A stretch of 28,955 nt of DNA from Myxococcota bacterium. GTDB lineage: Bacteria > Myxococcota_C > UBA6777. Each line of letters starts with the position of its first letter. Within the stretch, counting starts at the first letter, position 1. The stretch is from positions 1 to 28,955 of the forward strand of contig JAKLKB010000085.1 in assembly GCA_023150835.1 (NCBI GenBank), in the 5' to 3' direction. Both the position numbers and the translations under genes were made by a program. The notes under the pieces were generated by a model. The model searched no databases, was not told where the DNA came from, and saw only the letters and a program-made list of their open reading frames with translations. Below, one piece after another: positions 1 through 17,443 of this stretch.

Positions 1-398
1 CCCCCAATACCAACACCCCCTCCAACACCGCAAACCAATCCACCCGAACTTCAGCCCAAACCACAACCAACTCCGGCGGAGCAAGCCTCGCTCCCCCCCC
101 ACGTCCCAAGCCTCGCATCCGACGCACCAAACCTCGAACAGCCTCCTCTGCATGGGGCGGAATGCCCACCTCAACCTTGACGATCAGCACCAATCCCCCC
201 GGAGCCACCGTCCTCGTCGATGGCCGACCCTATCGCGGAAAAACGCCCTTGCGCATCGTCCTACTCAAAGGCAAACCCGCTGAGATCCGACTCCAATTGT
301 ACGGACACAACGACGCCTACTTCACATGGTCCGCCGAGCAAGACGAATCCAAAGACAATATCAAACTCTACCGCCTCAGTTGGTTCACACCGCGCTGA
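1..398 (+). CDS. PEGA-domain protein, C-terminal part (5' end outside window)
   Basis: The frame beginning at base 3 is open from the window edge to the TGA at 396-398, so the visible part is a C-terminal fragment of about 131 residues. The first roughly 50 residues are Pro/Thr/Ser/Asn-rich with a basic patch, typical of an extracytoplasmic linker. They are followed by a PEGA-type domain (ISTNPPGATVLVDG, then GKTPLRI and a run of beta-strand-like sequence). PEGA domains are small beta-sandwiches common at the extracytoplasmic end of myxobacterial Ser/Thr kinases and cell-surface proteins. The gene ends 17 bases before the next kinase start, so the two are probably co-transcribed. The missing N-terminus may itself be a kinase, but that is only inference from the family. 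An internal ATG at 162 is unlikely to be the start because coding continues upstream of it. Confidence 0.7.
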   Translation, partial: PNTNTPSNTANQSTRTSAQTTTNSGGASLAPPPRPKPRIRRTKPRTASSAWGGMPTSTLTISTNPPGATVLVDGRPYRGKTPLRIVLLKGKPAEIRLQLYGHNDAYFTWSAEQDESKDNIKLYRLSWFTPR

Positions 399-415
399 AC
401 CCTCGGGAGCCCGCC

Positions 416-3153: not shown

Positions 3154-3822
3154 ATGACCCCCACCCCCATCTTGTTGCTCGGCTTTGAGCCTTTTGGTGG
3201 CGACACGCTCAATCCCGCCCAAGAACTCTTAACGTCCTGTGATCCCCAGATCTTTCCAAGCCAAACGCACATCGCCATCCTCCCCGTAGACCACCAACAC
3301 GTCGCACAAGCCCTCCCCCGCTTGCTCGAAACTCATCAACCCCAGTTGGTGATCGGATGGGGCCTTGCTGCGGGCGAAGCCAGCTTACGCCTCGAACGTG
3401 TCGGCCTCAACTGGCTCGACTTTTCTATCCCCGACGCATCAGGCCAACAGATCCGCGATCAACGCCTGTACCCCGAGGCTCCCGATGCTTACATTAGCGA
3501 TCTCCCCCTTCGCACCGCGCAAAACCATCTCGCCAAGCATGGTATACCTTCCGTCCTCTCCTATACTGCGGGCACCTACCTGTGCAATCAGCTTCTCTTC
3601 ACCTGCCTTGATTTCTTCGCACAACGCAACTTCCCACGAAACGCCTGCTTTGTCCATCTTCCCCTTCTTCCCGAGATGATCGTTCCCCGACAAGCTCTCC
3701 GCTCGCCGCTCCCCCCTTCTCTCTCCCTTTCCACCCTTCAAGTCGCGCTGCCCTTGCTTGTCGACGCCCTCTGGAAGGGCATCTGCACGCTTCCACCCAC
3801 CAAGGATCGTTCGGCGGATTAG
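3154..3822 (+). CDS. pcp: Pyroglutamyl-peptidase I (peptidase family C15)
   Basis: This 222-aa protein has the normal length for the family. It removes N-terminal pyroglutamate from peptides in the cytoplasm. The substrate-binding signature LLGFEPFGG with the following NPAQ is at the N-terminus. The catalytic triad is intact: E81 in LRLERVGLN, C144 in AGTYLCNQ and H168 in CFVHLP. These numbers coincide with the classical E81/C144/H168 numbering of bacterial enzymes, which supports the ATG at 3154 rather than the upstream in-frame start at 3097. A purine-rich ribosome-binding site (AAAGAGAAAGG) precedes it. It is 23 bases behind the kinase gene and probably shares its transcript. Its TAG stop overlaps the TAA stop of the convergent gene on the other strand. 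Confidence 0.95.
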   Translation: MTPTPILLLGFEPFGGDTLNPAQELLTSCDPQIFPSQTHIAILPVDHQHVAQALPRLLETHQPQLVIGWGLAAGEASLRLERVGLNWLDFSIPDASGQQIRDQRLYPEAPDAYISDLPLRTAQNHLAKHGIPSVLSYTAGTYLCNQLLFTCLDFFAQRNFPRNACFVHLPLLPEMIVPRQALRSPLPPSLSLSTLQVALPLLVDALWKGICTLPPTKDRSAD

Positions 3823-6800
3823 TTGCAAGTCGTCGGAAGCTCCGAGAGTATGGGAACAGGAGAGAATCCACCCAATTCTTTTCCAAACAACAGCCGCTTG
3901 TTGTTGGTGTCTTTGCCGATGCGGATCTCGATCTTGCCTGAGCTACCGCTTCCACCGATGGACTTTCCGGCCACTTTTCGCGTGCCTTGTTCCAACACAG
4001 ACGAACGACCGCCTTCTCCGCCCGCCGCTGAAATCGCCGTTTGCTCGTAAAGAACAACCCGCTCCGCAACGACGTACATCGATCCTCCCGAACCACCGCC
4101 TCCTCCGCCGACAGATCCGCCTGCACTTGCGGCGTCCCCACCCGCAAGACCACGCGCAGAAAATCCACCGTTGAGATTCAACGTGCGCGCCCAAAGCAAG
4201 ACGATCCCGCCCCCTGCACCGCCCGCACCTACGGCATCGTTTTTGTTTCCCGCAGAGCTATTGTCGATGCCGCCTGCTCCGCCACCGCTGCCCAACACAA
4301 GGCGATCTTCGAGCGTTCCGCCGTAGGTTTTTCCACCTGTTCCAGCCGCTTGCCCGTCGCTGTCTTTTCCAGCCCCCCCCGCTTCCACATAACCGCCGCC
4401 ACCGCCGCTTGCCGCCTTGCTGCCAGCGCCTCCAGCGCTGCCTCCGCCTTCTTGGCTTGGCAAAGCATCCAACGACTCGCCCGCTGTTCCGGGCTGTGTC
4501 GTGCCGCTAACCGATGGCGCACCACGATAACCTTTACCGTCGACATGAAGGCGCCCGCCGTTGGCAACGCGCACATACTCTTTGACTTGCATCACCAACA
4601 AACCACCTTGGTTTCCGTCCCACGCAGACACCGTCAGCTCGCCTTGGCCGTCGATGATCACACGCTCAAAGGTGGGAACCCGCACCAGTCGGACTTTTTG
4701 ACCGCTCAGATCGCCGTTGGTGGTGGCCCCGTAGATCTTTTCAACCGCCGCTTGGAGCTTGATATCTTTGCCTGTTTTCTCTAACACCCGCACCAACTCG
4801 TAGACCCCAACACGGTCTTTGCTGCCTTGCATCTGGATCAAGACCGCTGCATCGCCGGGATCAAAGCCTGCGGCATCGCTCACTGTCACAGTTTTCGCGC
4901 CATCCTTGAACGCTTCCACAGCAGCCCAGTAGATCTCGGGCAGAGAAGAATTCTTACGTGGCGCTTTGTCCAAAACGATGGTGTTGCGCACCAAGAACTC
5001 ACCCGCCGTCCCGCCACCCCAACAGCTACAGTTGGCTTCCTTCGCATCAGGAATGCCGTTGCAGTCGTCATCCAAAAGGTTTCCACAACGCTCAGGCAAC
5101 GGCTTGACCTGCTCTTTGCAGGCTCCCCATTGGCCATTTTCACAAGTCTGCACGCCATCTTTGCAAGCCCCCACACTGCGCGTATTTGCGGGGCCATCAT
5201 AACAAGGCCGTGACAACGCCTTGCCGTCTTTGCCGATATCGACCTTCCCATCGCAATCATTGTCGAGGCCGTCACAGCGCGTCTCTGCAACTTCGTAATT
5301 GTTGTTCTTGCGGTAATAATCCCCTGCCGTACAAGCCACAAATCCCGCCTTGCCCGCACAAAGCTGTGAGGCTCCTTTGCAGACGCCGTCTTGTTTCGGA
5401 CACAGCGGTGCATTCGGGACGTTGTCGATCTTTCCATCGCAATCTTCGTCTGTTCCATCACAGGTTTCGGCTGCGGACTGCACCTTCTTTTGGCACTCAA
5501 GCTGACCGTTTCGACAAGCGATCTCGCCCACAGCACAGGGGCCTTTTTGACCTGTCACCGTACAAGCCCGACCCACACGCGGATCGGTTTCGTCGGTTTG
5601 CCCGTCGCAATCGTCATCTTTTCCATTGCACACTTCGGTTTGTGCGGTCTGGTTGGACACGCACGTCAGCGCACCGTTTTGACACTTTTGCGTTCCCGCT
5701 TGACAAATGCCTTTTTGGGCCGAAACAACGCAAGCCGCGCCACCTTCGGGGTTTCCTTCGTCCACAAAGCCATCGCAGTTGTCATCGATCCCGTTGCATA
5801 GCTCAATAAAGTTGGGCGTCTGCTCACCAATGCACCCACCCCAGATCCCTCCTGCGCCGCACGTCAGTTTGCCGGGGCGACAAGGAGAAACAAAACGTGT
5901 CGCGGTAGGCCCACCATAACAGTCGATTTGCCGCCCATCCATCGGGCAAGTACACCCATCATCGACTAGACCATTGCAATCATCGTCGATGCCGTTTCCA
6001 CCGTTGGCGCAGTTTTCGGCAGGAGCCGCCGAGACGGATTGTTGGCAAACGATCGCACCGTTGACGCAAGCTTTTTTCCCAAAGCGACACGGACCACGCT
6101 GGCCGATCACGTTGCAAGAAGCATCTTTTCCAACAAAGTCCTCATCGACTTGGCCGTCGCAGTCGTCGTCTTGGTTGTTGCACTCTTCGGGCTTTGGAAC
6201 GATCTGACTTTCGCAAGGCCCCCATCGACCGCCCAAAAGGCACACACGCTCGCCCTCTTTGCAAAGCCCTTTTCCTGCCGTGTTTGCGGCCCCTGTGTAG
6301 CAGGTTTCTTTTGCGCCGGGCTTGCACTGACAAGCAGGATCATCGGCGTCGATCTTCCCGTTACAATCGTTGTCTACACCATCTTCACAACGCTCTTGAG
6401 CTTCGGGTTCTTGAAGCTGCGTGCAGACGGCCACGCCATTTTGACAAGCGGTGAAGATCCCCTCTGCACAAGCCCCTTCTTTCCCTGCAACTGTGCAATT
6501 CAGCCCTTTTTTCGGAAACACTTCGTCGATCTGGCCATCGCAGTTGTCATCTTTTCCGTTGCAGATCTCTTCAGTGGGAGTGGCTTTGGGCTTGCAACGT
6601 TCGCGTCCATTTTCACAAATCCGCTCGCCGTCTTTGCAACCGTCGGTGGGCACGCCTGTATCGCAAGCTCCAAGCGCCGACAAACCATCATCGATCTGGC
6701 CGTTGCAATCGTCGTCTTGGCCGTTGCATTGTTCGCGTGGGGCCGCCAACACCGAGCCAACACACGCTCCCCAAGCACCGCCGCCTTTGCTCTCTGCTAC

Positions 6801-8051
6801 GTCGCTAAACTCGCAAACTTCGGCCCCTTGCAAACAGATCCCTTTGCCGGCTTGTTCGGCAGGCCCGCTATAACACGCTCTGCGCTGCCCAACGATGCAA
6901 CAATTGGCCAAGCCTTCATCGGTTTGACCGTCGCAGTTGTCGTCGATGCCGTTGCAGATCTCCTGTGTTTGGGGCTTTACAGCCTCCCGACAAGTTCCCC
7001 ACTTGAAAGCTCCCTTGCCATCGTCTGCACACACTTGATGCCCCTCGCGGCAGATGCCTTTTCCAGCCGTACCAGCGGGTCCATCATAACACGGACGGCG
7101 CACATCTTTGTGATGGCAATCGTCTGCTCCGCAACCCTCGTCGACTTGGCCATCGCAGTTGTCGTCCTTGGTGTTTCCGCACACTTCACGCGAGCAGATC
7201 TCGCAACTGTTGGCGACGGTCGAAAACGTGATGGCTTTGTTTTCTTCGGTCATCTTGGGCTGTAGCTTAAAAAAGAACCAACACGGCTCTGTTTGACCAA
7301 GGTCTTTTTGAAAGCAGTTGTATTCCGTCTTTTTCTTGCCGTCGGCCTCTTTCACCTGAAATCGCGTAGTGACCGACAAGATCGAACAAGCCGACTTGTG
7401 GCTTTCTTCCAACGCAGCATCTTTCGCACTTCCTAGAATATCGGGTCGAATCATCACCATCACCAAGCTCAGGCTGCTTTTCTCTAGCTTGGGTGGCGAG
7501 ACCGCCAAACGCAGACTTTCGGTGTATTGCTTGAGGCCTTCGCTCCAATACAAAACGTTTCCGTCTTCTTTGAGGCGGATCGCCACGACGTGCTTTCCGA
7601 TCTTGCCATCAACCCCATCATCCGGCCAACTCAACACCCAACAGCCTCGACTTTCCCCACCCGAAAATAGCGATGTGTACGGAGAACGCTTGCAAGAAGG
7701 ATCTTCGGGTTGGCTTTTGCACAAGGCTTGACGGGCGGCGATCTCTGTACAACGCTGGCGCGCAGCGTCTTGGCTGGCCCCCTGTGCGGGTTCCACCAAC
7801 AAACGCTGGCATTGCTCGACGGTGTACGAAAGACGCGGATCATCGTACGGCGACGGCTGCTCATACGCCGCAGCACCGCGCACTTGAACGATCGGACACG
7901 GTGACGGAAACTCCACTCCCACCGGACCGCACGCCCCACCCAACCACCACAAACCCATCATCCCACAAACCAACCACCCCAAACGCCCCGTCACGCCACG
8001 TCCATGCCCGCGATTCGGTTCTTGGGTTCTTCCACATCCTTGCAAAAACAT
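3819..8051 (-). CDS. Giant MopE-type metal-binding-repeat lipoprotein with Gly-rich C-terminus
   Basis: This 1410-aa protein is probably exported. The start at 8051 has AGGAG eight bases upstream, and a hydrophobic signal ends in LGGAC, a loose lipobox. Residues ~40-280 form an N-terminal region I do not recognise. About twelve Asp/Cys-rich units follow (encoded at ~7200-5040), such as CNGIDDNCDGQTDEG, CNGQDDDCNGQIDDG and CDGTDEDCDGKID. They are separated by Cys-rich spacers (CYDGP, GKGIC, WGTC). These match the putative metal-binding motif of MopE-like myxobacterial proteins, probably Ca or Cu binding and disulfide-bonded outside the cell. The last ~380 residues (4980-3819) are Gly/Ala/Ser-rich with repeated GGAGG-like loops between short beta strands, suggesting a beta-helix or adhesin-like region. 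The open frame continues upstream to 8672, but that part is antisense to the lnt repeat and is excluded. A role in adhesion, metal capture or predation is only inference. Confidence 0.88.
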   Translation of the reverse strand: MFLQGCGRTQEPNRGHGRGVTGRLGWLVCGMMGLWWLGGACGPVGVEFPSPCPIVQVRGAAAYEQPSPYDDPRLSYTVEQCQRLLVEPAQGASQDAARQRCTEIAARQALCKSQPEDPSCKRSPYTSLFSGGESRGCWVLSWPDDGVDGKIGKHVVAIRLKEDGNVLYWSEGLKQYTESLRLAVSPPKLEKSSLSLVMVMIRPDILGSAKDAALEESHKSACSILSVTTRFQVKEADGKKKTEYNCFQKDLGQTEPCWFFFKLQPKMTEENKAITFSTVANSCEICSREVCGNTKDDNCDGQVDEGCGADDCHHKDVRRPCYDGPAGTAGKGICREGHQVCADDGKGAFKWGTCREAVKPQTQEICNGIDDNCDGQTDEGLANCCIVGQRRACYSGPAEQAGKGICLQGAEVCEFSDVAESKGGGAWGACVGSVLAAPREQCNGQDDDCNGQIDDGLSALGACDTGVPTDGCKDGERICENGRERCKPKATPTEEICNGKDDNCDGQIDEVFPKKGLNCTVAGKEGACAEGIFTACQNGVAVCTQLQEPEAQERCEDGVDNDCNGKIDADDPACQCKPGAKETCYTGAANTAGKGLCKEGERVCLLGGRWGPCESQIVPKPEECNNQDDDCDGQVDEDFVGKDASCNVIGQRGPCRFGKKACVNGAIVCQQSVSAAPAENCANGGNGIDDDCNGLVDDGCTCPMDGRQIDCYGGPTATRFVSPCRPGKLTCGAGGIWGGCIGEQTPNFIELCNGIDDNCDGFVDEGNPEGGAACVVSAQKGICQAGTQKCQNGALTCVSNQTAQTEVCNGKDDDCDGQTDETDPRVGRACTVTGQKGPCAVGEIACRNGQLECQKKVQSAAETCDGTDEDCDGKIDNVPNAPLCPKQDGVCKGASQLCAGKAGFVACTAGDYYRKNNNYEVAETRCDGLDNDCDGKVDIGKDGKALSRPCYDGPANTRSVGACKDGVQTCENGQWGACKEQVKPLPERCGNLLDDDCNGIPDAKEANCSCWGGGTAGEFLVRNTIVLDKAPRKNSSLPEIYWAAVEAFKDGAKTVTVSDAAGFDPGDAAVLIQMQGSKDRVGVYELVRVLEKTGKDIKLQAAVEKIYGATTNGDLSGQKVRLVRVPTFERVIIDGQGELTVSAWDGNQGGLLVMQVKEYVRVANGGRLHVDGKGYRGAPSVSGTTQPGTAGESLDALPSQEGGGSAGGAGSKAASGGGGGYVEAGGAGKDSDGQAAGTGGKTYGGTLEDRLVLGSGGGAGGIDNSSAGNKNDAVGAGGAGGGIVLLWARTLNLNGGFSARGLAGGDAASAGGSVGGGGGGSGGSMYVVAERVVLYEQTAISAAGGEGGRSSVLEQGTRKVAGKSIGGSGSSGKIEIRIGKDTNNKRLLFGKELGGFSPVPILSELPTTCN

Positions 8052-8263
8052 CCACAACGCTCCTCGCAAAAGGCACAACCCTTCGCTTTGATGCTCACTT
8101 TTCGCGATCCAACACAGCCCCACATCTGAGCAAAAAATACAACACAAACAACGCCCATACTCGGATGCTTGACGATCGCACAGCCACACGACCATGCCAC
8201 AACGTCGCCGATCGATCAAGATTGACCTCGAAGTGACGCGACTGAACTTGTTTTTGTGGGGCG

Positions 8264-8291
8264 TTGCGGTCTTTCGTGGATGTGCTACAAC
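8264..8291 (+). promoter_or_regulatory. Candidate sigma-70-type promoter for lnt
   Basis: TTGCGG at 8264-8269 and TACAAC at 8286-8291 are separated by 16 bases, about 40 bases before the lnt ATG. The 283-base gap between divergent genes (8052-8334) must hold promoters for both. I see no comparably good element for the minus-strand gene. Confidence 0.35.
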
Positions 8292-8334
8292 TCTCGCCCG
8301 AACCCCTCTCCCACCGAGCAAAAGGACCGCAAGC

Positions 8335-10278
8335 ATGGCCAAAAAGGACAACAAGTCTCGAAAAACAGTACCCCCTCCCCTCAAGCCCGCCTCCAAGCAA
8401 CCCGTTTCTCCCGCACATCGCTCTACTTCGTCCAAAAAGCCCACACCCTCGCCACAACAACACACATCCTCCAAAAAGCCCACACCACCGCCACAACAAC
8501 AAGCAACGTCTGAAAAACCCACACCACCGCCACAAAAACAAGCAACGTCTGAAAAACCCACACCACCACCACAAAAACAAGCAACGTCTGAAAAACCCAC
8601 ACCACCACCACAAAAACAAGCAACGTCTGAAAAGCCCACACTCTCAAACCAACGTCCATCCGCGCCGCCCAAACCAAGCCATGCTTCGGGATTTTGGTCG
8701 GCTTATGGAGATCGTGGGCTGTTTTCTTGGCGTATCGGGGCTGTGTTGTTGACGTCGATCAGCCAACCGTTGCTCTCGGCTCCGTTTAACTGGTGGCCTT
8801 GGCATTGGGTCGCGTGGCTGCCCTTCCTTTGGGCAGTTCATCAGCAGGGTGGGAAAGGCCGCTGGTTCCTCGGTTATCTTGGCGGTACAGCCTCGAACTT
8901 TATGATCTTTTACTGGGTGATCCAAGCCCAAGTCGAATTCGGCAAGATCAAATATCCTGTGGCCGTTGGCTTAAATTGGCTGCTTTGTTCGAGTCTGAGT
9001 TTTATCTGGATCTTTCTTGCTTGGGGGATTCCTTGGCTTTCGCAGCGTTATCCGCGTGTCTGGATCTATCTCGTGCCTGCTTTCTTGGCCTCGATGGAAT
9101 ACCTCTTACCACAGTTGTTCCCGTATATGCAGGGTGTCAGCCATTATCAGGTCACGACGATCTATCAGATCTCTTCGCTTATCGGCATCTACGGTCTCAC
9201 CTTCTTGGTGCTTTGGTGCAATTGCTTGATCTACGACAAGTTCAGACGTTGGCAACAAGAACGCCCGATCTTTGGGTATGATATCGCCTTGTTTGTGATG
9301 ATCTTGCTGAGTGTCCTCGCCTACGGGCGCTTTCGCCAATTCACTTATGATCAAAAAGTCAAAACGGCTCGTCGTCTCAAAGTCGCCATGCTCCAATCCA
9401 GTCTGCTTCCGGGCGATCATTACGACCGCAGAAAAGTCGATCAGCTTTACAAAAAGATGAGCACCCAAGCCGCCTTGCTTGGGGCCGATTGGATCGTCTG
9501 GTCCGAAGGCGAATACAAACAACTCGTCAGCGATGTCTTGATCGATGCCAACGGTGATATCCTCCAAACCAAGCTCAGTGCGGGACTTTCGGACATCCGT
9601 GCGCTCAGCCGCAAGCTCGACCGCCCGATCCTCGTCGGCACTTACGGACGCCTTCACCAAGGCAAAGAAAGCAACTGGACCAACGCCGCCATCCATGTCC
9701 TCCCCAACGGCGATGTCGGCCAACGCTACGACAAGATCCTGCTCGTCCCTTTCGGTGAATACATCCCTTTTGAACGCTGGATCGCGCCGATCATGAAGCG
9801 CATCACCCATTGGCGCTCGCGCTACGCCTTCGGACGAAAACAAGTCGTCCAACCCCTCCAAGGTATCCCCTACAGCTTCTTGATCTGCTACGAAGCCATC
9901 TACCCGACCTTTGTCCGTGAAAGCGTGCGCAAAGGCTCCCGCCTACTGGTCAATATCACCTATGATGCGTGGTTTGGCCGCACCACCGCCCCTTACCAAC
10001 ACATGATGCTGGCGGCCTCTCGCAGTGCAGAACTGGGCGTCCCCCTCGTACGCCTCGCCACCACAGGCGTAAGCACTACGGTGGACGCTCTTGGCCGCAT
10101 GAACAAACTCAGCCCGCTCTACCAGCGACAAGTCGTCCTCCAAGAGATCCCTCTCGTGTATATGCCTTCTCTTTATCTCTGGATCGGTGATATCTTCGTT
10201 TGGTTGTGCATCGCAACCGTCCTCGTTGCCTTGCTACGGGGCCTTCGACGCCCTGCAACAGAACAACCTACCGCCTAA
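8335..10278 (+). CDS. lnt: Apolipoprotein N-acyltransferase with repeat-rich N-terminal extension
   Basis: This 647-aa integral inner-membrane enzyme transfers the third acyl chain to the N-terminal Cys of lipoproteins. The first ~105 residues are a Lys/Pro/Gln-rich, presumably cytoplasmic, extension with 13-residue repeats that ordinary Lnt proteins (about 510 aa) lack. Several membrane segments follow (~115-330), then a periplasmic nitrilase-fold domain (~345-610). The catalytic triad is intact: E391 in VWSEGE, K467 in YDKILLVPFGEYIP and C518 in LICYEA. A final membrane span lies near the C-terminus. The ATG at 8335 follows AAAGGA by eight bases; upstream in-frame starts enter the divergent promoter region. 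The sensor kinase follows after 39 bases, so the two are likely an operon. Its substrates may include the lipoproteins encoded nearby. Confidence 0.93.
   Translation: MAKKDNKSRKTVPPPLKPASKQPVSPAHRSTSSKKPTPSPQQHTSSKKPTPPPQQQATSEKPTPPPQKQATSEKPTPPPQKQATSEKPTPPPQKQATSEKPTLSNQRPSAPPKPSHASGFWSAYGDRGLFSWRIGAVLLTSISQPLLSAPFNWWPWHWVAWLPFLWAVHQQGGKGRWFLGYLGGTASNFMIFYWVIQAQVEFGKIKYPVAVGLNWLLCSSLSFIWIFLAWGIPWLSQRYPRVWIYLVPAFLASMEYLLPQLFPYMQGVSHYQVTTIYQISSLIGIYGLTFLVLWCNCLIYDKFRRWQQERPIFGYDIALFVMILLSVLAYGRFRQFTYDQKVKTARRLKVAMLQSSLLPGDHYDRRKVDQLYKKMSTQAALLGADWIVWSEGEYKQLVSDVLIDANGDILQTKLSAGLSDIRALSRKLDRPILVGTYGRLHQGKESNWTNAAIHVLPNGDVGQRYDKILLVPFGEYIPFERWIAPIMKRITHWRSRYAFGRKQVVQPLQGIPYSFLICYEAIYPTFVRESVRKGSRLLVNITYDAWFGRTTAPYQHMMLAASRSAELGVPLVRLATTGVSTTVDALGRMNKLSPLYQRQVVLQEIPLVYMPSLYLWIGDIFVWLCIATVLVALLRGLRRPATEQPTA
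8424..8642 (+). repeat. 39-nt tandem repeat encoding the Lnt extension
   Basis: Five to six tandem units of about 39 bases encode ATSEKPTPPPQKQ-like peptides; the first two are slightly divergent (TSSKKPTPSPQQ). The last three are nearly identical at the DNA level. The opposite strand is also open here, which creates a spurious extension of the minus-strand gene. Confidence 0.9.
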
Positions 10279-10317: not shown

Positions 10318-12405
10318 GTGACGATCTTAGCCCAAACATCGCTACTGTCCGCATTGATCACAGGCTCTATCGCCTTCTCGATCTTTTTGCGTGGACGCCG
10401 CACCAAAGCGCAGTCGTATTTTGCTTATTTCAACATCAACCTGTGCGCAGCGTTGCTTGCGACCTTTTTGATCAGCCTCGGCGATCTACTCGGAAGCATC
10501 GGACTTCACAGCTTGATGCTTCTTTCGTTGGGCTTGCCTGTGACGGGGCTGCGGTTTTTTGCGCTGTTCTTGCCCGATCTCGAAAAGGCTGTCTCTCGGA
10601 TGCTTGGGATCTGTTATCCGCTCACTGTGGTGTTTGCGGGGATCGCCGTCACACCTCTTTCACGAAACTTGATCTTGCTTTCTGCCCACATCGCTTATGT
10701 CTTGCTGATCTTTACGCTGTGTTTCTTGTTTATCTTCCTACGCTACCAAGCCTCCGAAAAGCCCGGAGAACGCACTCGACTGCGACCTGTCGGTTATGGC
10801 GGATTCATCGTCATCACCCTGATCATCCTCGACCTCGTGTCGTACCAACTCGACTGGCCTTATGTCTTTCTCGCAAACATCGGACTGGCCGTCTATATGT
10901 ACTACACCCTCCAGATCCTTTTGACCGTCCACGCCTTCGATATCTCGGAGCTGATCGGAAAAGGCGTTGTCTTGGGTGTGTTGTCTTTCGTTCTTGCGAT
11001 GATCTTCTGGCTATTGACTTTTTGGGCCGACACCAAACAGATCGGCTCCTTCTTTTTTAGCGTTCTTGTGGCATCGATCGTGATCCTGATCCTCTACGAT
11101 CCGCTCAAACACGAAGTCGAAGCCCGCGCTGCCGAATTCTTTTTTCGCCAAAAACGCGAACTCCGCATCCTGATCGAGCGGCTGCGCCGCGATCTTGTGA
11201 ACGTCATCGACCTCGAAAAAACGGCCCGCATCATCGTCACCACCCTCGAACGCTCGGGCCGCGCCACCCACGCCTCGTTTTATCTCCTACGCGAAGACGG
11301 CAGCGGATACGAACGCCTCAGTTGGGCGGGTAAACAACCGATCTACCTGATCGAAAAAGGCCGTCATGCCTCGTTTTTGCAAAACCTGCAAGAAAGCCTC
11401 GGCCCCGTCATCAAACAAGACCTCGAATTCCGCTACACCTCGTCCTTGTTTCATCTGCGCGGTGAAGGCGAAAATCTCCACGAAGAAGAACGCTTGTTGG
11501 AGATATTGCGCACCCTTGAACAACTTCACGCTGATTACTCTCTCCCTTGTATCGGCTCCGATCAAGAGATCCTTGGCTTTATCAACCTCAAAGACGACCG
11601 CTTCGAAGATTCCTACTCCCAAGAAGAACTCTCCTTTATCATGATGGTTGCCGCACAAGCCGCGATCACCATCGAAAACTCCCGTATCTTCGAGCAAGTC
11701 AAAGAACGTGAACGCCTCGCCGCCCTCGGTGAAATGTCTGCTGGGCTCGCTCACGAGATCCGCAATCCCCTCGGAGCCATCAAAGGTGCTGCCCAACTTC
11801 TTGACCCCAAAAACCTCGATGAAAGCGACCGAGAGATGCTTTCCATCATCCTCGAAGAAGTCGATCGCTTAAATAGCGTCGTCTCCCAATTCCTCGACTA
11901 CGCACGACCGATGCGCAGCGGCTTTGAACTGACCGATATCCACCAAATCCTCAAACGCACCAGCCAACTCTTCGACGCCGAATTCGCCGATACCCAGCGC
12001 AAACTCACCCTCCATCTCGATGAGGATGTCCCCCTGATCTACGCTGACGCCGAAAAACTTAAACAAGTCTTCATCAACTTGATCCGCAATAGCCTCGAAG
12101 CCATCGAAGAAAACAACGGACACATCGCGATCACCACCCACCTCACCCACGAACACGAAGCCCCCTACATCGAACTGATCTTTGATGACGATGGCCCCGG
12201 CATCCCCCTCGCTGTCATGAAAAACCTCTTCATCCCATTCTTTACCACCAAAGACAAAGGCACAGGACTCGGCCTCAGCATCTGTCAACGCATCATCGAA
12301 TCCCACGACGGCACCATCCAAGTCCAATCCAGCCCAGAACAAGGCGCTCGCTTTGTCATCCGCCTCCCTGTCCAACGCACCCCTCCACCCCGAATCGACC
12401 CGTAA
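10318..12405 (+). CDS. Membrane sensor histidine kinase (7TM-GAF-HisKA-HATPase)
   Basis: This 695-aa protein starts with seven or eight membrane segments (residues ~1-260). A GAF-like domain follows (~285-460; GRATHASFYLLRED, then AQAAITIENSRIF). Next is a HisKA dimerisation and phosphoacceptor domain with H479 in GLAHEIRNPLG, and a HATPase_c domain. That domain has an N box (LIRNSLEAIEEN), G1 at ~623 (DDDGPGIP), an F box (FIPFFTTK) and G2 (GTGLGLSIC). All catalytic motifs look intact. The HisKA/HATPase core is of the NtrB/ZraS type, whose usual partners are sigma-54 response regulators, but no receiver-domain gene lies next to it. The start is GTG at 10318 with GAGG upstream; it lies 39 bases behind lnt. 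The downstream gene, after an intergenic repeat, is the pseudo-sigma-54-activator described separately. Confidence 0.92.
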   Translation: MTILAQTSLLSALITGSIAFSIFLRGRRTKAQSYFAYFNINLCAALLATFLISLGDLLGSIGLHSLMLLSLGLPVTGLRFFALFLPDLEKAVSRMLGICYPLTVVFAGIAVTPLSRNLILLSAHIAYVLLIFTLCFLFIFLRYQASEKPGERTRLRPVGYGGFIVITLIILDLVSYQLDWPYVFLANIGLAVYMYYTLQILLTVHAFDISELIGKGVVLGVLSFVLAMIFWLLTFWADTKQIGSFFFSVLVASIVILILYDPLKHEVEARAAEFFFRQKRELRILIERLRRDLVNVIDLEKTARIIVTTLERSGRATHASFYLLREDGSGYERLSWAGKQPIYLIEKGRHASFLQNLQESLGPVIKQDLEFRYTSSLFHLRGEGENLHEEERLLEILRTLEQLHADYSLPCIGSDQEILGFINLKDDRFEDSYSQEELSFIMMVAAQAAITIENSRIFEQVKERERLAALGEMSAGLAHEIRNPLGAIKGAAQLLDPKNLDESDREMLSIILEEVDRLNSVVSQFLDYARPMRSGFELTDIHQILKRTSQLFDAEFADTQRKLTLHLDEDVPLIYADAEKLKQVFINLIRNSLEAIEENNGHIAITTHLTHEHEAPYIELIFDDDGPGIPLAVMKNLFIPFFTTKDKGTGLGLSICQRIIESHDGTIQVQSSPEQGARFVIRLPVQRTPPPRIDP

Positions 12406-12660: not shown

Positions 12661-14889
12661 ATGTCGTTGTCGCAAGTTTGTGAAGTCCTTTCTCGTTGTG
12701 GTGTGGTGGGTCCTTGTCTTCAGCAAAGCCTTGCCCCTGCCCTTGAAGTCTGCCTCGCCTCTCATCCCCTTCGCCCCCTTCTTTATCTCTCCGCTTCTTC
12801 TTACGAAGGCGAAGAACTCGCGCAAAAACTTCATCGCGCCAGCACTCTGCTCTACCAACGCGAAGGACGCTTCGTTTCTCTCCAAGCCGCGACTCTCCTT
12901 CAACACCTCCAAGAACAACGCCCCCTCCAACAACTCACCTACAGCGACGGGGCCACCCTTTTTGTCCATCAGCTCGAAGCCCTTGCCACCGCGCAACGCT
13001 CACAACTCTGGCAGGCCCTTCGACACGATCCCCTCCTTCTCTCTGGGCGGATCTGGCTGCTCGCCTGCTCTCAACAACTCGACCTCGAACACGCCGAACA
13101 CTCCATCGCTTCCGACTTCTTTGGCCGCATCCTCTCTCTCCCTCCGCTCTACCAACGCGGCCCCGATATCGACGCGATCCTCTGCGACTTTACCCAACAA
13201 TGGCTCAAACGCCACAAGCTCAAACAGTTCCAAGGCTTTTCCCTCGAAGCCATCGCCCACATCCACCGCGCTGTTCTTCAAACCAAACAACAAACCCCAC
13301 CACTCCTCGCCTTCCTCGAACAACTCCTCCACAAAGCCTCCCAACAACAAATCCCCACACACGAAGGACACATCGTCGCTTGGACCACCGTCCGCGCCCT
13401 CGAAGATGCGTGGGGATACCGCATGATCGGCGGCGATTCCCAAGTCCAAGATATCCAACAATACGACTTCCAAGAACGCCTCTTTGCCGCAGCCCTCGAA
13501 TACGCCGCATGGAAAAGCCCCTTTTCCCGCGAACTCCTCGAACTCCAAACCACCCTCCTACGCAAAGTCATCGACGAACTCCCACCCCACCAACGCAACT
13601 ACCAAGGCGTCACCGCTCACCTCGATCACCTCCTCTGGCTCAGTATGAAACTCCTCAGCGGCGCTCGCACACAAGCCGAACTCCGCGACTTCTTCGGCTT
13701 TGGCTCCGAAGGCAAGATCCCCAAAGCCACCGCCAAACTCAAATTCGATCAATACCAACTCGATCAATTCGGCTTCCGACCCAACGACCCCCTCCCATGG
13801 AATGATGCCGATGCCCCCGGACTCCATGTCCGCCCCCTCCTCTTCGCTCAAAACGACTTCCCGCTCTCCGACAGCCAACCCCACCTCCCCGCCATATCCT
13901 CGCCCTCTTCCCCCCACTTCGCCGCCCTACCATCCGAAGCATCCAACGCATCCACACGCACCGATCGATTCGCCAAAATGGATCACCCTATAGACAAAAA
14001 CGTCGAAACATCCGCACTCATCGACCAATTCGCCAAAACGGATCACTCTATAAACCAAAACGCCGAAACATCCGCACTCACCACCCCCACTCCCGAACAG
14101 ACTACCCCCGACTCCCGCAGTCGCTTCGATATCTCAGGCGAGATCGAAGAAACACTCTTCCTTTTGCACCAAGATCTCCTCACCGTACTCGCCGCAGATG
14201 CCCTCACACTCGAACAGATCGCAACACTCCTAGGCGAGTCCGTCCCCCAAACCCTCGCCACACTCGAACAGCTCATCGACTACGGCCTGCTCGAACAAAA
14301 CGACCTCCGCTACGCCCCACCCACCCACGATCTCTATTATATGCACAAACACTCCAAACTCCGCTTTATGGAAGAAAATCTCTCTCGCCGCCTTGGAGCC
14401 GCCTTCCAAGCCGGTGACAACGCCATCCTCGAAAATCACTTCCTCCGCCTCCCTGACAGCGGACTCCCCCACCTCCGAAAACAACTGCTCGATCCTTTTG
14501 TCTTCCAAAAGCTCCTCCCCCGCGCCGATACCCAAGAGATCTTCCCCGAAGATCGCCCCTATACCAAACGCATATATGCCCTCGTTCTCCTCGGAACCAA
14601 TCGACTCAACACCGATATCCACAGCCGCACACCACTCCAACAGCGCGTCCTCTACTACTTCCGCGAAGCCTGCCTCCAACGTGCTGATCAACGACACAAA
14701 GATCAGGCCATCTGCCTTCAAGCCACCCTCATGCTCGACCCACACACCGCACCCCTCTGCATCCAAGACCTCCAAGGTCTCCGCAAACAAACCCGACAAT
14801 ATCTCCCGCAAGGACGCGGAAATAAACCCAATTTCAACCTGACGTATTGCTTTACCGAAGTCCCGCTCTCATTTCAAAAACCTGCGTGA
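12661..14889 (+). CDS. Degenerate sigma-54-activator-like (pseudo-AAA+) protein with winged-helix-like segment
   Basis: This 742-aa cytoplasmic protein is not an obvious member of any named family. Residues ~40-265 align by eye with the AAA+ domain of sigma-54 enhancer-binding proteins. LLYLSASSYEGEELAQKLHR fits the Walker A region but lacks the GxxGxGK consensus. ATLFVHQLEAL fits TLFLDEIgEL, with both Walker B acids changed (H103, Q104). FFGRILSLPPLYQRGPDI fits the arginine-finger and PPLrER region. WTTVRALEDA near residue 241 fits the sensor II WPgNVREL region. The GAFTGA loop is missing. It is therefore predicted not to hydrolyse ATP or contact sigma-54 normally. A low-complexity linker with a 60-nt repeat (~435-475) leads to a possible winged helix (~505-560; LEQIATLLGESVPQTLATLE) and an unrecognised helical C-terminus. 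GAGGAG lies six bases before the ATG. No N-terminal receiver domain is present. The gene is certain; the homology is my reading. Confidence 0.7.
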   Translation: MSLSQVCEVLSRCGVVGPCLQQSLAPALEVCLASHPLRPLLYLSASSYEGEELAQKLHRASTLLYQREGRFVSLQAATLLQHLQEQRPLQQLTYSDGATLFVHQLEALATAQRSQLWQALRHDPLLLSGRIWLLACSQQLDLEHAEHSIASDFFGRILSLPPLYQRGPDIDAILCDFTQQWLKRHKLKQFQGFSLEAIAHIHRAVLQTKQQTPPLLAFLEQLLHKASQQQIPTHEGHIVAWTTVRALEDAWGYRMIGGDSQVQDIQQYDFQERLFAAALEYAAWKSPFSRELLELQTTLLRKVIDELPPHQRNYQGVTAHLDHLLWLSMKLLSGARTQAELRDFFGFGSEGKIPKATAKLKFDQYQLDQFGFRPNDPLPWNDADAPGLHVRPLLFAQNDFPLSDSQPHLPAISSPSSPHFAALPSEASNASTRTDRFAKMDHPIDKNVETSALIDQFAKTDHSINQNAETSALTTPTPEQTTPDSRSRFDISGEIEETLFLLHQDLLTVLAADALTLEQIATLLGESVPQTLATLEQLIDYGLLEQNDLRYAPPTHDLYYMHKHSKLRFMEENLSRRLGAAFQAGDNAILENHFLRLPDSGLPHLRKQLLDPFVFQKLLPRADTQEIFPEDRPYTKRIYALVLLGTNRLNTDIHSRTPLQQRVLYYFREACLQRADQRHKDQAICLQATLMLDPHTAPLCIQDLQGLRKQTRQYLPQGRGNKPNFNLTYCFTEVPLSFQKPA
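13963..14082 (+). repeat. 60-nt in-frame tandem duplication in the linker
   Basis: Two 60-base units (13963-14022 and 14023-14082) encode FAKxDHxIxxNxETSAL-type peptides in the linker between the pseudo-AAA+ region and the winged-helix-like segment. They differ at several positions, so the duplication is older than the 27-nt one in the first kinase. Confidence 0.85.
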
Positions 14890-14990
14890 CCTCAAAAGAT
14901 GCGATAAAAGACACCCAAAACGCACACTCTGCACACACTCTTACGCACAGCAAAGAATGTCAAACATGAGGCATCTTTCTTCCTCACCCT

Positions 14991-15019
14991 TTGAAGTTTG
15001 ATGCCCACAAAAATACAAA
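14991..15019 (+). promoter_or_regulatory. Candidate sigma-70-type promoter for the Fn3 protein
   Basis: TTGAAG at 14991-14996 and TACAAA at 15014-15019 have a 17-base spacer and lie about 30 bases before the ATG at 15050. The 160-base gap after the 742-aa gene shows nothing else. Confidence 0.4.
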
Positions 15020-15049
15020 CCTCGATAACCGATAACGGAGACTTTTTCC

Positions 15050-15676
15050 ATGAAACGAATCTGGTGGTTGAGCGCTCTCGGACTCAGCTTCATCCTCACA
15101 CAACCCGCCAAAGGTGGCGGCATCGTCCAAGAAATGAATGTCGCTCCCAACGACCTCACTCAACAAAGCGCCACCACACCACAACACCACCGCGCTCCCA
15201 ACACTCCACCCTCCAAACGCGAAACCTCCACCCCAGATGGCATACAGCCCCAATCCAACAACCACTGCGCAACACCCGTTCGGATCGAACAACTCCCCTC
15301 CGAACGCAGCACCCGCATCTCTTGGAAAAGCTACAACCCTCAAGGCAAACAACCCGTCAAATACCTGATCTACCGACGCACCGAAGAAGGCGGTTGGGAA
15401 CTGATCGGCGAAGTTGACGGCTCCACCTTCTCTTTTACCGACCGCGATCTCCCCCAAGCCAACCGCTATTCTTATCGCGTCGTCGCCGTCTATGAACTCG
15501 AAAGCGGCAACTTCCAACGCTTCCAATATCCCTCCCAAAGCATCACCCTCCAACAAACCCTCGAACCCATCGGCGGTATCGGCTGCCAAGCCACCCCTTG
15601 GCAACACGCCCCCTCTCTTTTCTTCCTCTTGTTCCTGATCCCCTTGTTGCGTAGACGCCCTTCTGCACAACCCTAA
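15050..15676 (+). CDS. Exported fibronectin-III protein with MYXO-CTERM-like anchor
   Basis: This 208-aa protein has a signal peptide (MKRIWWLSALGLSFIL, cleaved near residue 22) and a Pro/Thr/Gln-rich spacer. A single fibronectin type III domain (~74-167) shows RISWKSYNPQG, VKYLIYRRTEEGGW, FSFTDRDL and YSYRVVAVYELESG. The C-terminus is tripartite: Gly-Cys (GGIGCQ), a hydrophobic helix (LFFLLFLIPLL) and RRR. This matches the MYXO-CTERM sorting signal, in which the Cys is thought to be processed for surface anchoring in Myxococcota. CGGAG lies about ten bases before the ATG. The domain suggests a cell-surface binding role, but the ligand is unknown. A lipoprotein gene follows after 86 bases. 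Confidence 0.82.
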   Translation: MKRIWWLSALGLSFILTQPAKGGGIVQEMNVAPNDLTQQSATTPQHHRAPNTPPSKRETSTPDGIQPQSNNHCATPVRIEQLPSERSTRISWKSYNPQGKQPVKYLIYRRTEEGGWELIGEVDGSTFSFTDRDLPQANRYSYRVVAVYELESGNFQRFQYPSQSITLQQTLEPIGGIGCQATPWQHAPSLFFLLFLIPLLRRRPSAQP

Positions 15677-15762
15677 CATCATCGAAAATCCCCTTCCAAC
15701 CGCCAACATCGTGCATTTGTTCACACCAAACCAACAAATGCCTCCCACCATACGGCCAAAAC

Positions 15763-16584
15763 ATGATCATCCCTTTCTCCGCTCACTATCGCAAAACACT
15801 CTCTTCCCTTTTCTATCGCAAAACACTCTCCTCCCTTCTGTTTGTTTTTTTCGCAGCATTCGCTCTTTGCGCGTGCTCTAGCAACGGGCAAGTCGCCTTT
15901 GTCGTCGAAGGCATCGCACCTTCCGCAGGTGGAAGCTTCACCAATCGCCTCAGCTTCCGCATCGATCCCAAGACCCTTCGCCTCGTCCTTGGCGACCTTC
16001 AACTCGGGCGTACCGACCCCGCACAAGACCTCCAATCCTTCGACTCTCTCCCTCCTCTCCTCACTCCCGGCCAAGCGGTCGATCCTTCCGAGATCGGTAA
16101 AGAGGGCCGATTCCCCGGAATGACCGTCGTCAACCTGCTCCCGGGCGCCACCACCACCGAAAATATCCTCCCCCAAGGCCGCGCTCCTGCCGATACTTGG
16201 AAAGAAGCCCGTCTGCGCTTTGCCCCCGCCGTTGTCGGTGTCCGTGGCGTCAACTCCCAAGATCCGCTCTTTCAACGCACCCTACTGTTTGAAGCCGTCG
16301 TCCAAAAAGATACCACCCTCCGATGTGATCTCCTGATCCAAATCCCCTTCCAAATGGGAGTAGCTCTCCGCATCCAGCCCTTTACCGTCCAACCCAACGG
16401 ACAACACACCAACAAGATCCGCTTCGATTACGCCAAATGGTTCGAGGACATCAACTTTGAATCCGTCTGCGCCGGAGCCAAAGCAACTGTCATCGTCAAC
16501 GAAACCCAAAACACCGCCATATTCGACCAGATCCGCACCGCCATCCCCTCCTCCATCTCCTTTCAATTCAGCGCCGGCCAATAA
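15763..16584 (+). CDS. Hypothetical lipoprotein
   Basis: This 273-aa protein has a long signal region ending in the lipobox-like LCAC (Cys38), followed by SSNG, so it is probably a lipoprotein. The rest is soluble and beta-rich in appearance (RLSFRIDPKTLRLVLGDLQL, VVGVRGVNSQDP, KATVIVNETQNTAIFDQ). It contains a second pair of Cys residues that could form a disulfide. I do not recognise a family. The first residues contain a tandem duplication (YRKTLSSL twice), which lengthens the cytoplasmic part of the signal. The ATG at 15763 has no clear ribosome-binding site. It lies between a MYXO-CTERM protein and a sigma-54-driven lipoprotein, suggesting an envelope gene cluster, but shared function is not shown. 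Confidence 0.75.
   Translation: MIIPFSAHYRKTLSSLFYRKTLSSLLFVFFAAFALCACSSNGQVAFVVEGIAPSAGGSFTNRLSFRIDPKTLRLVLGDLQLGRTDPAQDLQSFDSLPPLLTPGQAVDPSEIGKEGRFPGMTVVNLLPGATTTENILPQGRAPADTWKEARLRFAPAVVGVRGVNSQDPLFQRTLLFEAVVQKDTTLRCDLLIQIPFQMGVALRIQPFTVQPNGQHTNKIRFDYAKWFEDINFESVCAGAKATVIVNETQNTAIFDQIRTAIPSSISFQFSAGQ
15787..15840 (+). repeat. 27-nt tandem duplication in a lipoprotein signal region
   Basis: Two 27-base units (15787-15813 and 15814-15840) start with TATCGCAAAACACTCTC and differ at a few positions. They duplicate YRKTLSSLF in the n-region of the signal peptide. Confidence 0.85.
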
Positions 16585-16766: not shown

Positions 16767-16781
16767 TGGCACATCCGTTGC
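16767..16781 (+). promoter_or_regulatory. Consensus sigma-54 (-24/-12) promoter
   Basis: TGGCAC at 16767-16772, a five-base spacer, and TTGC at 16778-16781 match the RpoN consensus at every core position. Transcription would start near 16793, about 32 bases before the ATG of the 49-aa lipoprotein. Such promoters need an AAA+ enhancer-binding activator. Upstream sequence (16585-16760) has GC-rich inverted fragments around 16675-16712 that could be activator sites, but I could not define a clear palindrome. Confidence 0.75.
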
Positions 16782-16824
16782 TTAGCGTTCGGCTGGATGG
16801 ATTGCTTTACGAGGAGGAGTGGCG

Positions 16825-16974
16825 ATGATGTACATCATTTTGTCGATTGTTGTGTACTTGACGGCTTGCAAGTTGTTGGACCTTGACGACACGGATGACA
16901 ACAAGATCCAACAACCTGTTTTTTCCGGCCACGCTGATCCTCCACAAGACCCACAAACACCCCCTCAACACTAA
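16825..16974 (+). CDS. 49-aa micro-lipoprotein under a sigma-54 promoter
   Basis: The ATG at 16825 (or the next codon, 16828) follows a strong ribosome-binding site, GAGGAGGAG at 16811-16819. The product begins MMYIILSIVVYLTACKLLD. It is a very short signal with a perfect lipobox, LTAC, giving a mature lipopeptide of about 35 residues that starts with Cys. It has an acidic patch (DLDDTDD) and a Pro/Gln-rich end. The stop at 16972 falls inside a 24-nt tandem repeat. No known family is recognisable. The combination of a consensus -24/-12 promoter, a strong ribosome-binding site and a good lipobox makes it a credible gene despite its size. It resembles small entericidin- or lysis-type lipoproteins only in format. 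The PTPS-like gene follows after 49 bases and may share the transcript. Confidence 0.7.
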   Translation: MMYIILSIVVYLTACKLLDLDDTDDNKIQQPVFSGHADPPQDPQTPPQH

Positions 16975-17004
16975 CCACCAACACCCCCTCAACACTAACC
17001 ACCA
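16957..17004 (+). repeat. 24-nt perfect tandem repeat
   Basis: Two identical 24-base units (16957-16980 and 16981-17004) span the end of the micro-lipoprotein gene and the gap before the next ATG. The stop codon of the lipoprotein lies in the first unit. Confidence 0.9.
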
Positions 17005-17023
17005 ACCCCCCCCATCACCTCGT

Positions 17024-17443
17024 ATGTACACTGTGATCGAAGAACGCACCTTCCAAGCCTATCACGCGATCCAATATCCCGACGGAACATGGGAAGAGTC
17101 CCACTGCCACGATTGGCTGCTGCGCGTCCATGTTTGCGCCTACGAACTGGATCGCGTTCATCTTGTGATTGACTTTCTTGTACTCCAAGCCATGATCAAC
17201 CGCACCCTCGCACCTTTCGAGGGCCAGCATATCAACGAGATTTCGCCTTTTTCCCAAGGGATCAGCCCTTCAACAGAGTTTCTTGCGCGACTGTTTTTTG
17301 ATACGTTGGCCGCGCAACTCCGCGAGCCGCGTGTTTGGTTGCACAAAGTCGAATTGCGCGAAGCCCTAACCTCTTGGGCTGTCTACGAAGTCGCCCATCC
17401 TCCCCGACATTCCGTCCCTTCCGACAAGGAGCCCTCTGCATGA
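17024..17443 (+). CDS. PTPS/QueD-family (COG0720) protein without the usual catalytic Cys
   Basis: This 139-aa protein has the T-fold of the 6-pyruvoyl-tetrahydropterin synthase / 6-carboxytetrahydropterin synthase family. Zinc ligands H14 (TFQAYHAI), H27 and H29 (ESHCHDW) are present, as are VIDFLVLQ, QHINEI, PSTEFLARL and a C-terminal acidic residue in LREALTSWAVYE (E113). The Cys normally four residues before the HxH motif is Trp23 here, and the intervening Gly of HGH is Cys28. Glu24 and Glu25 precede HxH, recalling the PTPS-III variants that use Glu and make 6-hydroxymethyl-dihydropterin for folate. Folate rather than queuosine synthesis is thus possible. The ATG at 17024 lacks a clear ribosome-binding site; longer forms would overlap the lipoprotein gene. 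It overlaps the next gene by four bases (ATGA), implying translational coupling. Confidence 0.8.
   Translation: MYTVIEERTFQAYHAIQYPDGTWEESHCHDWLLRVHVCAYELDRVHLVIDFLVLQAMINRTLAPFEGQHINEISPFSQGISPSTEFLARLFFDTLAAQLREPRVWLHKVELREALTSWAVYEVAHPPRHSVPSDKEPSA

Follow-up and report, generated by a model that had tools for sequence, protein, structure and literature searches.

A predicted sigma-54 activator AAA+ domain, disarmed and conserved, in a Myxococcota gene cluster

The window analysed here is a stretch of 28,955 nucleotides from a Myxococcota bacterium (contig JAKLKB010000085.1), and it carries a gene, hereafter pseudo-bEBP (protein P0001), whose frame is open from the ATG at 12661 to the stop at 14889 (Table 1). 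All five orthologs start with M-S and a GAGGAG precedes the P0001 ATG, in agreement with an earlier note that had described an intact frame of 742 codons with a good ribosome-binding site. Orthologs occur as one copy each in all five genomes examined of the phylum, covering three genera. A profile search of 386 genomes found no full-length relatives outside the phylum, and a scan of genome contigs for relatives returned the ortholog in G001 alone. The only signals from Pfam and NCBIfam were a weak match to a helix-turn-helix and a PspF trace; neither named an AAA+ domain above its cut-off, so the AAA+ domain of this protein would go unnoticed in standard annotation.

Table 1. Positions of the pseudo-bEBP gene, its domains and its neighbours in the window.
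Feature	Position	Strand	Residues	Evidence and remarks
pseudo-bEBP gene (P0001)	12661..14889	+		intact frame, 742 aa; single-copy orthologs; dN/dS
pseudo-AAA+ alpha/beta core	12661..13140	+	1-160	hhalign, motif map, AlphaFold2, Foldseek; Walker A at 44-51, Walker B at 103-104, loss of the GAFTGA loop near 86-88
AAA+ lid subdomain	13141..13380	+	161-240	conserved LPPLxxRxxDI box; hhalign, AlphaFold2, motif map
AWxTVRxLEDxWxY-like helix	13378..13422	+	240-254	conserved, after the lid; ortholog alignment
helical middle domain	13456..13809	+	266-383	most conserved part; invariant GKIPKATAKLKFDQ
unconstrained linker	13810..14115	+	384-485	dN/dS 1.09; 1/102 columns invariant
winged helix	14155..14313	+	499-551	HTH_20 and TrmB in an ortholog; hhalign
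C-terminal domain	14329..14886	+	557-742	ends in invariant LPQGRGNKPNFN
gene B	15050..15676	+		signal-peptide-like start (by eye), MYXO-CTERM-like tail
gene C	15763..16584	+		lipobox-like predicted lipoprotein (by eye); invariant Cys38 in alignment A4
GAF-HisKA-HATPase sensor kinase	10318..12405	+		upstream of pseudo-bEBP; adjacent in two genera only

Genes B and C follow pseudo-bEBP in that order in four genomes (G000, G001, G003, and G004); the contig of the fifth breaks off behind pseudo-bEBP. Two gene B orthologs matched MYXO-CTERM weakly, below the cut-off. The gene clusters conservedly with two predicted envelope-protein genes. An open reading frame of 255 aa (14984-15751, minus strand) lies antisense to gene B and is probably not a gene, because it is gene B on the plus strand that is conserved across genera. 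The NtrB-like kinase that the earlier note had placed upstream is present in this window, but it and a gene for apolipoprotein N-acyltransferase (Lnt) neighbour pseudo-bEBP in just two of the three genera, g1 and g3. The kinase ortholog in G002 and G004 is located elsewhere, beside an HD-domain gene, and an obligate pairing with the kinase was therefore rejected. The window also holds a 1617-aa protein with MopE-type Cu-binding repeats (3819-8672, minus strand), a homolog of which lies near the pseudo-bEBP gene in 5/5 genomes, and a Ser/Thr protein kinase to which an FGE-sulfatase (formylglycine-generating-enzyme-like) domain is fused (326-3130, plus strand).

No sigma-54-like site with fewer than three mismatches was found upstream of any of the five orthologs, and a sigma-54 promoter driving the pseudo-bEBP gene was discarded on that ground. 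A perfect sigma-54 promoter had been noted downstream; the consensus there is indeed exact (TGGCAC-N5-TTGCT at 16767-16782, plus strand; 0 in 60 mononucleotide shuffles), but it lies 1.9 kb past the gene end and beyond gene C, where it precedes another gene, one resembling 6-pyruvoyl-tetrahydropterin synthase (16883-17443).

Residues 1-265 of an alignment of the five orthologs (A1) were compared with 57 intact AAA+ domains of sigma-54 activators (bEBPs). Using hhalign, the family profile aligned to the bEBPs over residues 12-236, confidently over 40-231, with a probability of 97.2, an E-value of 3.9e-11, and a score of 80.0; the reversed profile reached 19.2, and none of 60 column shuffles exceeded 19.8. 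Against other AAA+ domains the family profile scored 12.9 (ClpA/B-type) and 16.7 (DnaA), although intact bEBPs reach 65.4 against the Clp set, which argues for a signal peculiar to the bEBP clade. The orthologs taken singly preferred the bEBPs too. The open profile search of the 386 genomes listed 19 non-orthologous matches at E <= 0.001, and 16 of the 19 were checked for bEBP identity: fifteen (loci L070-L084) scored 200 to 424 bits with a bEBP model, and the sixteenth (L055) is a divergent bEBP relative with 105 bits. A sequence search of the PDB had PspF chains as its sole AAA+ matches, and these were weak (E 0.3 to 0.7). The earlier reading, that residues ~40-265 follow the order of a sigma-54 activator AAA+ domain, is thus borne out by the profiles, in which the bEBP AAA+ domain and not an unrelated fold came out best.

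A template-free AlphaFold2 model of residues 1-265, built from the five orthologs only, had a pLDDT of 72. Foldseek ranked PspF (2c96) first among 350,542 PDB chains (E 6.5e-6), ahead of other AAA+ proteins, at moderate TM-scores of about 0.5, and structure prediction and fold search thereby agree on an AAA+ fold. VIA-align gave like Z values of 11-12 for HslU, ClpX, RuvB, and bEBPs, so the fold is set by structure and the clade by sequence. The full-length model was too poor beyond the N-terminal domain (pLDDT 44.7); in the fold search this low-confidence model returned AAA+ proteins as well. A spurious resemblance to bEBPs, or one that reflects generic AAA+ similarity only, would fit the tie of HslU, ClpX, and bEBPs in VIA-align and the moderate TM-scores, but it is barely credible in view of a profile score of 80 to bEBPs versus 13-17 to Clp and DnaA, the preference of every single ortholog, and the checked non-orthologous matches among those listed in the 386 genomes, all of which were bEBPs. 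Profiles and model together show that the first ~240 residues of P0001 form an AAA+ domain whose ancestry lies with the sigma-54 activators in particular.

The bEBP motif columns were then mapped one by one onto the five orthologs, given here with the two of genus g1 first. The Walker A lysine (G, G, R, C, H, where bEBPs expect GxxxxGK[DE]), the GAFTGA loop (an alignment gap), the sensor I asparagine (S, S, P, A, P), the first arginine finger (A, A, V, L, Q), and the sensor II arginine at residue 213 (P, P, H, S, E) are absent from all five. The glycine preceding the Walker A lysine is replaced by an invariant glutamate (E49), and one P-loop position is still glycine, in P0003 only. The second arginine-finger position reads R, R, H, Q, Y, with the arginine found only in the two g1 orthologs and beside an alignment gap. 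Walker B, which is DE in bEBPs, reads HQ, HQ, ED, MH, ED, meaning that the acids are swapped yet present in two of five. What was kept is structural: a histidine in alpha1, the T-L strand preceding Walker B, the LxPLxxRxxD box, and the lid.

The earlier note had anticipated much of this. The P-loop lysine and, apart from the residue in P0003, the glycines are gone, as is the GAFTGA loop, and no receiver domain is present in P0001. Loss of both Walker B acids is true of P0001 (H103/Q104) but not of the whole family, in which it is the loss of the Walker A lysine that is universal. The conserved WxxVRxLE motif (241-248) had been mistaken for sensor II; it lies past the lid. Since the parts that bind ATP and contact sigma-54 are lost in all orthologs, the former motor appears to survive as a passive scaffold. 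The alternative that a nucleotide or other small ligand is still bound in the old pocket, so that the protein would be a ligand sensor, could draw on the invariant E49 at a pocket position and on the acidic pair at Walker B in two orthologs; with the lysine in 0/5 orthologs, a single glycine left, and an acid in the P-loop that would be expected to repel phosphate, I regard it as quite improbable.

Between the two species of the P0001 genus, dN/dS was 0.085 over residues 1-265 and 1.09 in the linker. It was 0 over residues 266-383, where no nonsynonymous substitution occurs, 0.23 in the winged helix, and 0.07 in the C-terminal domain. The pseudo-bEBP is under strong purifying selection, and this constraint supports the earlier view that it is not a decaying pseudogene. 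Identity between genera was 24-28% in the alpha/beta core, 43-52% in the lid, 69-70% in the middle domain, and 53-55% in the C-terminal domain. The former motor is hence the fastest-changing folded part and the middle domain the most conserved, a gradient that is expected if the core keeps a scaffold role only. The same gradient speaks against the decoy partner of real activators that the earlier note had offered, a protein that would join genuine bEBP rings and poison or tune them. An AAA+ fold of the same clade and the 32 to 67 Sigma54_activat matches per genome would suit such a decoy, but it would need a conserved ring interface, and the would-be interface lies in the least conserved folded part and has unconserved arginine fingers, making the decoy improbable.

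The middle and C-terminal regions, winged helix aside, have no relative outside the phylum in the 386 genomes, and for the C-terminal domain no fold or relative was recognised, so that their role can be read from conservation only. A Fis-type helix-turn-helix, suspected by eye in the middle domain (NARTQAELRDFFGF...YGF), scored at shuffle level against 52 bEBP Fis regions and was dropped. The linker is expanded in the P0001 genus by the near-repeats FAKMDHPIDKNVETSAL and FAKTDHSINQNAETSAL, with a dN/dS of about 1.

The winged-helix-like segment that had been noted further on was located at about residues 499-551, where ortholog P0004 matches HTH_20 (E 8e-7), TrmB (E 3e-5), and, weakly, DUF4423. 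Aligned with DUF4423 proteins, the winged helix alone reached an hhalign probability of 94 while the remainder stayed at shuffle level, and the DUF4423 assignment was consequently not carried over to the whole C-terminal half. Beyond this segment the likeness to DUF4423/TIGR02147 proteins does not rise above shuffles, and no TIGR02147 member was found above the cut-off in the five phylum genomes. PADLOC gave weak matches only, around the winged helix. The net charge of the recognition helix is +4 and +2 in two orthologs, -1 in one, and -3 in the P0001 genus; as the charge is unconserved and negative here, DNA binding through the winged helix is doubtful in this genus. The DNA-binding role proposed in the earlier note therefore stands as far as the presence of the winged helix goes, but is weakened by its acidic recognition helix.

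With the PspF/NtrC class, the pseudo-bEBP shares the AAA+ fold and clade, the helix alpha1 pattern (..LH..), the TLF strand, the LPPLxxRxxDI box, and the lid helices. It differs from that class in lacking Walker A, GAFTGA, the sensor I asparagine, conserved arginine fingers, sensor II, and the receiver, in having no detectable Fis helix-turn-helix (usual, not universal in bEBPs), and in its extra middle, winged-helix, and C-terminal domains. Catalytically dead AAA+ subunits of the clamp-loader delta type also keep the fold without ATPase motifs, but they belong to a different AAA+ clade and work inside a ring with active partners.

GAFTGA-less bEBPs that act on sigma-70 promoters include R. 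capsulatus NtrC, which requires ATP binding, Caulobacter NtrC, which requires Walker A and B residues, and V. cholerae VpsR (spelled VspR in the source), which is reported not to need ATP (PMC10274813). The pseudo-bEBP shares with them the deleted L1 loop, and no direct sigma-54 contact is accordingly expected. The nucleotide site on which both NtrC proteins depend is gone in the pseudo-bEBP, whose nearest counterpart in behaviour is VpsR, likened by its reported ATP independence. Known unconventional bEBPs lose the sigma-54 contact loop, and two of the three compared still depend on the nucleotide site. In a limited body of literature searched for bEBPs lacking Walker motifs, only GAFTGA-less cases appeared, and none without the nucleotide site.

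Further bEBP-like proteins in the phylum have lost parts of the motor. In G004, a protein at L198:4994-6916:- (also L055) carries a second disarmed bEBP AAA+ domain, in which Walker A reads GQPGAGL, Walker B reads IEH, and GAFTGA is missing. This domain is joined to a Ser/Thr kinase domain whose HRD and DFG motifs are intact, and the Pfam matches in the protein are Sigma54_activat, AAA lid, and Pkinase. The fusion, from one genome, suggests that the lineage has repeatedly put bEBP motors to use as modules without enzymatic activity. A separate bEBP-like family (L049, L050, and L051 in G003, G004, and G001) keeps Walker A intact (GEDGVGK or GDDGVGK) but lacks GAFTGA, has EE instead of DE at Walker B, and has lost the arginine fingers; by eye, its N-terminal part looks like FHA plus GAF.

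Profile, fold, alignment, and dN/dS together support the core claim of the earlier note, an AAA+ scaffold without ATPase motifs, and show a bEBP-descended, disarmed AAA+ fold that is family-wide, under selection, and part of a conserved cluster. The best reading, to which I assign a probability of about one half, is that the motor was made non-enzymatic and that the protein is an ATP-independent scaffold or regulator whose middle and C-terminal domains act on envelope genes. It would involve neither ATP hydrolysis nor direct remodelling of sigma-54, and the AAA+ part would serve as a platform for folding and assembly on which the lid, the middle domain (GKIPKATAKLKF), and a C-terminal module comprising, in this grouping, the winged helix and the LPQGRGNKPNFN domain are displayed. 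These three parts may jointly bind nucleic acid or a partner, and envelope genes, perhaps those of its own cluster, would probably be controlled from ordinary sigma-70-type promoters. The bEBP ancestry and AAA+ fold, the motif loss in 5/5 orthologs, the constraint, the conservation gradient, the winged helix, the envelope cluster, the lack of an upstream sigma-54-like site, and the precedent of GAFTGA-less bEBPs on sigma-70 promoters speak for this reading; the recognition helix of net -3 in the P0001 genus, the lack of known relatives for the middle and C-terminal domains, and the E-D at Walker B in two orthologs speak against it.

The acidic recognition helix of the P0001 genus would suit a protein that is no transcription regulator but serves the neighbouring envelope proteins as an adaptor or assembly factor in the cytoplasm, with the winged helix as a protein-protein module. 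Clustering with a lipoprotein-like and a MYXO-CTERM-like gene, and the Lnt gene upstream in two genera, point the same way, but bEBP ancestry and the winged helix favour transcription, and Lnt is not adjacent in genus g2, so that an adaptor appears rather unlikely. Returning to the ATP-independent scaffold, its broadest form is put forward only tentatively: a family spread through the phylum would have stripped the sigma-54 activator motor of its function altogether and turned it into a platform that controls the cell envelope without ATP.

Standard family models overlook such bEBP relatives. That a descendant of the bEBPs has been conserved although its nucleotide site is gone means that the fold can serve something besides ATP-driven remodelling, and makes the pseudo-bEBP a clean system for asking what an AAA+ scaffold alone does in gene control.
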